Position numbers and translations under genes: made by a program. Shown piece after piece: positions 59,725 to 61,795 of a stretch of 64,000 bases of DNA. The stretch's first letter is position 1. The number at the start of each line of letters is the position of its first letter. Source of the stretch: Galbibacter sp. BG1 (GTDB lineage: Bacteria > Bacteroidota > Bacteroidia > Flavobacteriales > Flavobacteriaceae); assembly GCF_013391805.1 (NCBI RefSeq), contig NZ_CP058364.1, positions 1,736,501 to 1,800,500 of the forward strand, written 5' to 3'. The notes under the pieces were generated by a model, which did not search any database, had not been told where the DNA came from, and saw nothing but the letters and a program-made list of their open reading frames with translations.

Positions 59725-60963
59725 TTAAAACGATTTTGTGTCCTTAAAATTTACTTTTTCATTAAAAACCTTTTTCAATTTCTGAACATCATCACTTAGC
59801 TTACGGTCAACTATTTTAGCATAGTGCTGGGTAGTTTTTAAAGATTTATGTCCAAGCATTTTGCTGACAGATTCAATAGGTACTCCATTGGAAAGAGTTA
59901 CTGTAGTGGCAAAGGTATGTCGAGCAATGTGAAAGGTAAGGTTTTTGTTGATTTCACAAAGATTTGCAATCTCTTTCAAGTAATTATTGGTTTTTTGATT
60001 ACTTGACATGGGAAGCAGAGGTGATCCCTGTTGCTTTTTACTGTAATATTTAGCGATGATATTTCTGGCTGCTGGGAGCAAAGGGATATTACTGATAGTT
60101 CCGGTTTTGGTACGCTTCACCTTAATCCATTGTTCGCCGTCAATACCTAAAATAATATCATCATGAGTCAATTTGGTGACATCAATATATGCGAGGCCGG
60201 TAAAGCAAGAAAAAATGAATACATCCCGAACTTGTTCTAGCCGTTGATTTGATAATTCTTTATCAATAAGTTTATTCAATTCTTGCTTAGTTAAGAACTC
60301 TTTCTCTATTTCATGTGTTCGTAGTTTGAAATTATAAAAAGGATCTTTTTCTATCCATCCGTTTGCATGACAAATACGAATTATTTTTTTGAAATACGAT
60401 AGATATTTCATAGCTGAGTTATGGGAAAGGTCGACAGTAGTCTTTAAGTAATAAATAAAGTGGTTGATATATTTTACATCAATGTCTTTTACTAAATAAT
60501 CTATGGAAGAATAAGTAGCTTTATTGAAATTGGATACATGACTTTTTGTTGTTTTATAGCGCTGAAGGGTTCTGGCAGTATAATCTTTACCGACCAGTTT
60601 TGCCATTCTTGAGTTGTGTTCATCAAATACATTAAGGATGTCTTTTCTGGAATCATCTTTTCCTAAATACCGGTTGCGAAGTTTTAGGGCTGATATATCT
60701 TGTTGCTTGTCCATCATTTCCTGATAAGCCCGATATACATTTTTTTTAATCATATCCAGGTTTCTATTTACCTCCTTAGCAGTAGGAGAAGAGCCCATGA
60801 GTTTATTGGCCTTAGCATTCCATTTCTCCAAACTCACCTTTAAAAAGGTGCTTAGTTCGGCACGCTCTCCACTATAAGTAATACGTAAATAAATGGTTCC
60901 AAGCTCTAAGTCTTTTGCTTTGCTCTTTCTAATATAAAATAGGATAGATAATAAGTCTTGCAT
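59725..60963 (-). CDS. tyrosine-family integrase of the island
   Basis: The 412-residue recombinase has an arm-type N-terminal region and an SAM-like core-binding domain (about 110-205), then catalytic residues His345-Arg348 (FHIARHTFA), His372 (LGHKSLKTT) and nucleophile Tyr381 (HYAK). The position of the first catalytic Arg in the CFTGLAYIDV block is Ala258. The same change is known in CTnDOT-type integrases of Bacteroidota, so the enzyme is probably active. It lies next to the right attachment site and tRNA-Leu, its likely target. Confidence 0.92.
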   Translation of the reverse strand: MQDLLSILFYIRKSKAKDLELGTIYLRITYSGERAELSTFLKVSLEKWNAKANKLMGSSPTAKEVNRNLDMIKKNVYRAYQEMMDKQQDISALKLRNRYLGKDDSRKDILNVFDEHNSRMAKLVGKDYTARTLQRYKTTKSHVSNFNKATYSSIDYLVKDIDVKYINHFIYYLKTTVDLSHNSAMKYLSYFKKIIRICHANGWIEKDPFYNFKLRTHEIEKEFLTKQELNKLIDKELSNQRLEQVRDVFIFSCFTGLAYIDVTKLTHDDIILGIDGEQWIKVKRTKTGTISNIPLLPAARNIIAKYYSKKQQGSPLLPMSSNQKTNNYLKEIANLCEINKNLTFHIARHTFATTVTLSNGVPIESVSKMLGHKSLKTTQHYAKIVDRKLSDDVQKLKKVFNEKVNFKDTKSF

Positions 60964-61141: not shown

Positions 61142-61178
61142 AAAAAACCCTGTAAAATCTGGCGTTTTACAGGGTTTT
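61142..61178. terminator. terminator between integrase gene and tRNA-Leu
   Basis: The 10-bp arms CCCTGTAAAA (61148-61157) and TTTTACAGGG (61165-61174) are followed by T runs on both strands. On the minus strand it ends the tRNA transcript, replacing the original terminator at 41728-41762 after insertion of the island. Confidence 0.75.
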
Positions 61179-61195
61179 AATATCAATTAATATGT

Positions 61196-61213
61196 TAAAA
61201 GTACTCGAGGTGG
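61196..61213. other. right attachment site overlapping the tRNA-Leu 3' end
   Basis: The 18-bp repeat is identical to 41764-41781. Twelve nt belong to the tRNA acceptor end, six lie just downstream. Confidence 0.75.
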
Positions 61214-61283
61214 GAATCGAACCCACACTCCCGAAAGAACTGGATTTTGAATCCAGCGCGTCTACCAATTCCGCCACTCGAGC
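61202..61283 (-). tRNA. tRNA-Leu (CAA)
   Basis: The 82-nt sequence folds as a class II tRNA: acceptor GCTCGAG paired with CTCGAGT (G1-U72 wobble), D arm GGCGGAATTGGTAGACGC, anticodon arm CTGGA-TTCAAAA-TCCAG with anticodon CAA, a variable arm and T arm GTGGG-TTCGATT-CCCAC. CCA is not encoded. Its 3' end is the island attachment site, and a GIY-YIG gene ends 1 nt upstream of its 5' end. Confidence 0.95.
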
Positions 61284-61284
61284 A

Positions 61285-61533
61285 TTATGTGTTTGAATCT
61301 CTGAGAGTTCTAAGATACTCTTTACCAACTCCAGATTTCCAATATTTCTCTCTTTGTCGACCTTCTTTTCTGTCTTTGCAAATCTCGGAAAAAATTAATT
61401 TAAACGGAAGATAAGGTTTAGTTGTTTTTTCTCTGCCGTTATTATGCCGTTTTAATCTTTCTTCCAGATTGCTGGTCATTCCAACGTATATGTAATTTCT
61501 AGTCGTGCTCGATATTGCATATACAGTAATCAT
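61285..61533 (-). CDS. GIY-YIG nuclease domain protein abutting tRNA-Leu
   Basis: The 82-residue single-domain nuclease has VYAISSTTRNYIYVGMTSNLEERLKRHNNG (GIY and YIG strands with the catalytic Arg in LEERL) and a C-terminal EKYWKSGVGKEYLR. The stop codon ends one base before tRNA-Leu nt 1, so mRNA and tRNA would be one transcript, probably separated by RNase P. A 5' copy of the same tRNA lies upstream of this gene. It may be a selfish element that uses the tRNA; it lies outside the integrase island. Confidence 0.88.
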   Translation of the reverse strand: MITVYAISSTTRNYIYVGMTSNLEERLKRHNNGREKTTKPYLPFKLIFSEICKDRKEGRQREKYWKSGVGKEYLRTLRDSNT

Positions 61534-61550
61534 AAAATCAATTCCAAATT

Positions 61551-61619
61551 AGCGCGCCTGCCTGTCGGCAGACAGGTCTACCAATTCCGCCCTGCCTACC
61601 GCAGGCAGGCACTCGAGCA
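61551..61619 (-). pseudogene. tRNA-Leu 5' fragment (nt 1-29) split by two palindromic insertions
   Basis: The fragment repeats tRNA-Leu nt 1-29 plus one upstream base, and diverges two bases into the anticodon stem. Its first insertion, CCTGCCTACCGCAGGCAGG (61591-61609), lies between nt 9 and 10; the other, CCTGCCTGTCGGCAGACAGG (61557-61576), lies between nt 23 and 24. Outside the insertions it is identical to the intact gene. It cannot make a tRNA. Confidence 0.88.
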
Positions 61620-61795
61620 ATTGCATTTAAGAAACCATTGCGTTCTCTCAAATTTGGAATGCAAAACTATAAAATTTTTTTATATCTTCAAGATAAAATT
61701 ACCAACAAATATAGTTTTAGAGTAAAAATAAATTTCTAAATTTGCACCTCGTTTTGAGAAGCGACAGATAATTAACTACTAAACAAGATATTAGA

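Follow-up and report, generated by a model that had tools for sequence, protein, structure and literature searches.

The tRNA-Leu(CAA) locus of Galbibacter sp. BG1 harbors a compact unit that is probably a minimal, homing-endonuclease-type mobile element parasitizing tRNA genes. An ORF for a GIY-YIG protein of about 80 amino acids and a second, partial copy of the tRNA are enclosed by the native promoter region with its displaced tRNA end on one side and by the native 3′ flank on the other, and one complete tRNA is left. The anatomy of such units, their presence or absence at a given site, their generality, their lineage-wise target specificity, and their decay were observed directly in the genomes compared.

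Anatomy of the tRNA-Leu(CAA) unit

The genome under study (3.71 Mb, single contig) is designated G000 and belongs to a genus set of seven genomes, G000 to G006. The unit is located in a stretch of 64,000 nucleotides of this genome, referred to below as the window, and its features are listed in Table 1. A first-pass annotation of the sequence had proposed that nucleotides 1 to 29 of tRNA-Leu, a GIY-YIG ORF, and a complete tRNA-Leu follow one another on the minus strand, and this order was confirmed by ARAGORN, Rfam, and Pfam. As also proposed, the tRNA starts 1 nt past the ORF stop codon, separated from it by a single T (position 61284), and the copy ends in the anticodon stem, two bases from its beginning according to the annotation and 2 to 3 nt inside it according to our analysis. 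The duplicated 5′ piece is present, but it is not contiguous, as two palindromes that the annotation had overlooked interrupt it, resulting in the layout nt 1 to 9, CCTGCCTGCGGTAGGCAGG, nt 10 to 23, CCTGTCTGCCGACAGGCAGG, nt 24 to 29. Both palindromes are of the CCTGCCTGCCGGCAGGCAGG type and 19 to 20 bp long. The unit measures about 335 bp rather than the 270 bp estimated initially, and the GIY-YIG ORF is the only recognized gene in it.

Table 1. Features of the tRNA-Leu(CAA) locus of G000 (positions in the window)
Feature	Position	Strand	Remark
Promoter-like element TTTATAGTTTTGCATTCC, native, 5′ of displaced tRNA end	61656..61673	−	Similar sequence before tRNA in congeners
Displaced partial tRNA-Leu(CAA) copy, nt 1 to 29, split by two palindromes	61551..61618	−	
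Palindrome 1, CCTGCCTGCGGTAGGCAGG, following tRNA nt 9	61591..61609	−	Some Leu units only
Palindrome 2, CCTGTCTGCCGACAGGCAGG, D-loop region following nt 23	61557..61576	−	All five Leu units of genus
Spacer between remnant and ORF	61534..61550	−	
GIY-YIG nuclease ORF, 82 aa	61285..61533	−	PF01541, E = 3e-19
Intact tRNA-Leu(CAA)	61201..61283	−	ARAGORN; Rfam RF00005, 61.4 bits
Terminator-like inverted repeat, native tRNA 3′ flank	61144..61178	−	Read in sequence

Counterparts of TTTATAGTTTTGCATTCC were found 5′ of tRNA-Leu(CAA) both at the empty sites of G002 and G003 and at the occupied sites of G001, G004, and G006, and this element is the putative promoter of the tRNA. Likewise, the terminator-like inverted repeat is present 3′ of the tRNA in the empty genomes G002 and G003; a terminator scan did not detect the repeat at 61144..61178. 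When the remnant (61551-61618, minus strand), which is located directly 5′ of the ORF start, was considered as RNA, palindromes 1 and 2 were found to pair with one another (−45 kcal/mol, z −5.9).

Occupied and empty sites among congeners

The Leu unit is present in four of the seven genomes of the genus set, i.e., in G000, G001, G004 (two units in tandem), and G006. In G002 and G003 the tRNA is found at the same place, adjoining a prs-like gene, and the site is empty. ORF-less relatives that keep the tRNA piece, which the first-pass annotation had named as evidence against its reading, were not encountered here, as both genomes lack the ORF as well as the duplicate. Among the Leu units of the genus, palindrome 2 is the constant one (five of five, with one base changed in G001), palindrome 1 being restricted to some of them.

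The Met unit is present in G000, and its site is empty in the other four of the five genomes compared (G001, G003, G004, and G005). At the empty Met sites, the promoter region adjoins a tRNA identical in 75 of 75 positions to that of G000, whereas in G000 the same promoter region adjoins the remnant; consequently, it is the remnant that marks where the 5′ end lay originally, and the intact tRNA has retained its native flank on the 3′ side. An Arg unit occurs in G000, where it is decayed, and in G001, and is absent from G004. Presence/absence polymorphism at one orthologous site is thus documented for the Leu and Met units.

The tRNA-Leu of the occupied genomes G000 and G001 is identical in 83 of 83 positions to that of the empty genomes G002 and G003. 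Occupied and empty Leu and Met alleles therefore differ in flank and remnant alone, the intact tRNA being the same. Since the tRNA of the occupied allele equals the empty target, the recognition site is not obviously destroyed by insertion, as classical homing requires.

Other units in the same genome

Several further units were found in G000. At tRNA-Met(CAT), a 5′ remnant with one palindrome is followed by the ORF and the intact tRNA. The unit at tRNA-Phe is of the 3′ type and includes a second, truncated nuclease copy, and an array of three units contains tRNA 3′ halves that match tRNA-His of G003. At tRNA-Arg(TCG), the ORF is decayed. Locus L194 (G000:C1:846400-848200) at tRNA-Leu(TAG) has remnants of both types, the 5′ one with two hairpins and the 3′ one with a single hairpin, but lacks a nuclease ORF; it could be a decayed copy or an ORF-less form with both ends duplicated and is best read as the former. 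Together with a further decayed unit, L195, and the tandem arrangement in G004, it illustrates tandem and decay stages, and the set of units in G000 looks like successive stages of invasion and decay.

The nuclease

The 82-residue protein matches PF01541 with 69.5 bits (cutoff, 22.6; E = 3e-19), its only Pfam match, and consists of a single GIY-YIG domain with no extra DNA-binding domain. The domain contains the catalytic Tyr, Tyr-x-Gly, Arg, and Glu that define the GIY-YIG nuclease superfamily, and the corresponding residues Y5, Y16, G18, R26, and E62 are invariant in 30 sequences. In an AlphaFold2 model (pLDDT, 93.7), the nearest folds are UPF0213, Slx1, and I-TevI. Values of dN/dS between well-separated orthologues range from 0.08 to 0.30; as judged from the sequences, the ORF is under purifying selection.

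Spread across bacteria

A profile built from six proteins retrieved 80 loci in a collection of bacterial and archaeal genomes and 30 in the family's genomes, two sets that partly overlap. A tRNA was located within 600 nt in 93 of the 110 fetched relatives and within 100 nt in 82, fractions that are biased because the query was built from tRNA-linked copies. In all 93 cases, the nearest tRNA and the ORF share the same strand. When the tRNA-linked loci were searched for part of the tRNA on the far side of the ORF, the score exceeded that of every one of 372 mismatched controls in 78 of the 93. The flanking pattern whose restriction to the Leu locus would, according to the first-pass annotation, have argued against an element is thus shared by dozens of other GIY-YIG ORFs. 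Given this result and the presence of the same unit at tRNA-Leu(CAA) of three congeners, the arrangement at the Leu locus is not due to chance. A further 90 loci, comprising lower-scoring relatives and the results of an epimerase search, included 30 near a tRNA and 39 with sequence duplicated across the ORF, in part REP-like repeats. Overall, about 100 distinct loci with a partial tRNA copy were obtained, mostly in Bacteroidota; CPR and other phyla contribute a small number. A phage or plasmid vehicle was considered and rejected: one weak phage match (two records) was obtained, there were no plasmid matches, and four contigs were viral.

Among 100 distinct remnants, 75 are of the 5′ type, ending at a median of nt 35, and 25 are of the 3′ type, starting at a median of nt 28, so that both types converge on the anticodon arm. 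In many 5′-type units, the ORF stop codon lies 2 to 8 nt before the tRNA, or 9 or 22 nt within it. The original proposal of an element that inserted into a tRNA gene and supplied a new 5′ part is partly supported, its core having passed both of these checks at the Leu locus. As a rule for the class it applies to the 75 remnants of the 5′ type, but the class is not solely 5′ restoring, as the other 25 restore the 3′ end and relatives in protein genes have a duplicated gene start.

Target choice and insertion into protein genes

In a tree of 78 protein sequences, based on 80 columns and containing many weak forks, tRNA isotype changes 9 times, compared with 28.5 changes after shuffling, and none of 200 shuffles gave as low a number; for Leu alone, 3 changes compare with 24. 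The Leu units of Saccharibacteria and Bacteroidota group together. By contrast, the restored side (5′ or 3′) switches 15 times. Because isotype follows the protein tree and the restored side changes often, the tRNA used seems to be a property of the nuclease, but not the end that is restored.

A close subfamily is found at genes for sugar-nucleotide epimerases/dehydratases (assigned by Pfam for L033 and L036). All seven loci of this type (L033, L036, L259-L262, and L264) break at the codons for GGAGF|IGS: the upstream piece ends at GGAGF or a closely similar sequence, and the gene downstream restarts and runs on into IGS. The two gene starts are unlike in sequence at six of the seven loci, and the upstream piece of L264 has no evident start codon. 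This divergence argues against a fresh target-site duplication and fits a replacement borne by the element, as in the fungal mORFs discussed below (PMC3630166). With respect to a foreign origin of the resupplied end, the epimerase gene starts differ between copies and the tRNA copies are nearly identical, so that at tRNA loci an end carried by the element and one duplicated on insertion are indistinguishable. None of the epimerase units contains a palindrome. In several epimerase-type loci, the ends read AACCC(A/G)TGAAAT on the left and ATTTCACAGGT on the right.

At L265 and L266, which belong to the same subfamily, a 23S_rRNA_IVP-like gene is broken between ACCTGTGAAAT and ATTTCACAGGT ends with no resupply; both loci are flanked by ACCTGTGAAATA/TATTTCACAGGT inverted repeats, and the fragment at L265 corresponds to 23S_rRNA_IVP (Pfam). 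Other small GIY-YIG ORFs (L003, L007, and several of L211-L258) are located between REP-like repeats (GTCATTGCGAGC..., GTCATGCTGAGCTTGTCGAAGCA) and possibly represent a separate partnership of nuclease and repeat. At L028 in G003, a GIY-YIG ORF with palindromic repeats on its flanks lies between apparent atpD and atpC genes.

Palindromes within the remnants

At least one palindromic insert, mostly of 19 to 20 bp and almost always in a tRNA loop, was present in 73 of the 100 remnants; the other 27 have no clear palindrome. Since these and the epimerase units can do without one, the palindrome was rejected as a constant part of the unit. Stem strands of the tRNA are spared by 79 of 80 inserts, compared with 36.7 splits expected at random; the raw p value of 3e-20 ignores shared ancestry, and with each of the 13 positions entered only once, p is 0.004. 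Of 106 palindromes in the 478 kb of loci that were fetched, 101 are located at most 450 nt from the nuclease ORF. The CCTGCCTGCCGGCAGGCAGG palindrome also stands alone away from these loci, mostly with no neighboring GIY-YIG ORF. Allowing up to 3 mismatches, 73 CCTGCCTGCCGGCAGGCAGG sites were counted in G006, compared with 0 to 5 in its congeners (none in G002 and G005), which perhaps reflects a recent burst in G006. Among 100 genomes of the family, the palindrome was found in 17 of 27 with strong relatives of the nuclease and in 17 of the 73 others, a comparison that is confounded because the palindrome sits, in part, at those very loci.

Proposed mechanism and alternative explanations

For a homing-type element, the following course can be envisaged. 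The nuclease would break an empty tRNA gene close to the anticodon arm, repair of the break would copy the donor unit into the gene, and the missing half carried by the unit would rebuild a functional tRNA; as the unit would bring this half along, insertion into an important gene would be tolerable. The ORF would be transcribed from the tRNA's own promoter, with RNase P freeing the tRNA beside the ORF stop codon. The palindrome would probably prevent the displaced half from serving as a tRNA, a recombination partner, or a target, and once the unit is fixed the ORF would decay and finally be lost. Empty sites, patchy presence within the genus, the wide occurrence of the architecture, the convergence of break positions on the anticodon arm, the isotype-following tree, the epimerase loci, the invariant catalytic residues, purifying selection, and the tandem and decay stages point to such an element. 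Against it stand the identity of the occupied tRNA with the empty target, the structure-specific Slx1 among the fold neighbors, and the lack of a DNA-binding domain. The first of these points would be accounted for by transposition centered on the palindrome, a rather unlikely alternative, in which the GIY-YIG protein would be a structure-specific hairpin or cruciform nuclease that moves REP-like palindromes into DNA capable of pairing with itself, tRNA genes included. Repair at the hairpin would then duplicate tRNA sequence as a by-product, and the unit would be a REP/nuclease pair, not a homing element in the classical sense. The frequency of palindromes in the remnants (73 of 100), their sparing of stem strands (79 of 80; p = 0.004 for 13 positions), their dispersal elsewhere (73 in G006), their greater, albeit confounded, frequency in genomes with strong relatives, the other GIY-YIG ORFs between REP-like repeats, and the proximity to Slx1 agree with this model, but 27 of 100 tRNA remnants have no clear palindrome and the epimerase units have none, palindromes outside these loci are mostly not beside a GIY-YIG ORF, and clade-wise specificity for tRNA isotypes points to recognition of sequence.

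We consider it improbable that no mobility is involved and that ancient local duplications arose beside a nuclease gene of vertical descent, perhaps domesticated, that was lost repeatedly. While the agreement of the two tRNA copies within each genome fits such a history, and the tandem copies show that local duplication occurs, it is at odds with close relatives that have empty sites, with the occupation of different tRNA genes within one genome, with the relatedness of Leu units between Saccharibacteria and Bacteroidota, and with epimerase genes as targets. Least credible, in our estimate even less so than a history of local duplication, is that the protein cuts tRNA as a toxin or regulator and that the broken tRNA copy acts as decoy or antidote. 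Isotype-specific linkage and the ends of the remnants near the anticodon arm would be in line with this function; however, the known activity of GIY-YIG enzymes is mainly that of DNA nucleases, the targets flanking these ORFs also include protein genes and REP repeats, 3′-type remnants occur, and no remnant RNA is common to all units. The homing-type element remains our preferred interpretation. Conceivably, though we rather doubt it, the units constitute a new class of tiny mobile elements in bacteria, in which a single-domain GIY-YIG nuclease directed at tRNA genes of a given isotype (or at gene starts) would carry along a replacement gene end and would also move a 20-bp palindrome, resulting in a two-part parasite of gene and dispersed palindromes in Bacteroidota and candidate phyla. 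If the palindrome belongs to mobility, a separate class is possible.

Relation to known systems

Normally, an insert is tolerated in an important gene only if it is spliced out or makes the gene whole again. A recombinase-free element of less than 400 bp that leaves the entered tRNA gene intact would be an unusual route, described otherwise, in the literature searched, only for fungal mitochondrial protein genes. It would explain many small genes annotated as GIY-YIG nuclease family beside Bacteroidota tRNAs, together with the accompanying broken tRNA pieces and palindromes, and it offers a set of nucleases of about 80 residues whose targets can be read from the genome and tested.

Tyrosine-integrase islands insert into tRNA genes, too, and restore a tRNA end, but the Leu unit, at about 0.3 kb, has no recombinase. 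Island-like splits at tRNA-Leu(CAA) were seen in G004 and G005 (L053-L056), where islands that are apparently integrated and large (in G004, about 51 kb) divide the tRNA and have the core GCTGGATTCAAAATCCA in common; one island in G004 adjoins GIY-YIG units. In the window, a tyrosine-recombinase-like ORF (59725-60963, minus strand) adjoins the terminator region of the tRNA. An integrase island was rejected as the origin of the duplication in G000, as the att-like core GCTGGATTCAAAATCCA occurs only once in the window, in the tRNA itself, and the islands of G004 and G005 break the tRNA differently. A group I intron was likewise rejected, since an Rfam search at gathering thresholds returned the tRNA and nothing else in the window, and tRNAs alone at ten G000 loci. 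REP/RAYT systems share short dispersed palindromes beside a nuclease gene; however, RAYT is a Y1 HUH transposase, whereas here the protein is of the GIY-YIG type (only PF01541) and part of a tRNA is carried along.

I-TevI has the same catalytic fold and residues, and the 82-residue protein matches its catalytic domain weakly in sequence (E = 0.014) and also in fold, but the separate DNA-binding module of I-TevI is absent. SegB of phages T4 and T6 is a free-standing GIY-YIG homing endonuclease in a tRNA region and was reported to cut within tRNA genes (PMC13096335, PMC2988022); according to the SegB study, free-standing GIY-YIG enzymes typically cut donor alleles with low efficiency (PMC13096335). 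In contrast to the protein described here, SegB comprises 221 residues and is encoded by a phage gene in a tRNA cluster, with no partial tRNA copy across the gene, and it rebuilds no tRNA. Membership in the SegB family was rejected (no match to the family HMM; best BLASTP E value, 3.5).

The closest parallel is provided by gene hybrids of fungal mitochondria, described for Allomyces atp6 and Glomus atp6, atp9, cox2, and nad3 (PMC3630166). In these, a mobile ORF (mORF) of the GIY-YIG or LAGLIDADG type lies inside a conserved gene and carries a replacement for the severed end, the native end being displaced beyond the ORF (PMC3630166). The Leu-type units, too, have an endonuclease ORF between a resupplied gene end and a displaced native end. 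However, mORFs occur in mitochondria, where they are hosted by protein genes and supply a new C-terminal (3′) end, whereas the units described here occupy bacterial chromosomes and mainly tRNA genes, restore either the 5′ or the 3′ end, encode a nuclease of about 80 residues, and have palindromes in the displaced part. A full-text search of openly licensed PMC papers retrieved the fungal mORFs and phage SegB, but no earlier description of a bacterial, tRNA-rebuilding GIY-YIG unit. To judge from these papers, the initial view that such units are not a described class stands for bacteria and for tRNA genes, but not for the principle: an endonuclease ORF with a replacement gene end is already known from fungal mitochondria (PMC3630166), and what appears to be new here is its occurrence in bacterial tRNA genes and the palindrome as a partner.
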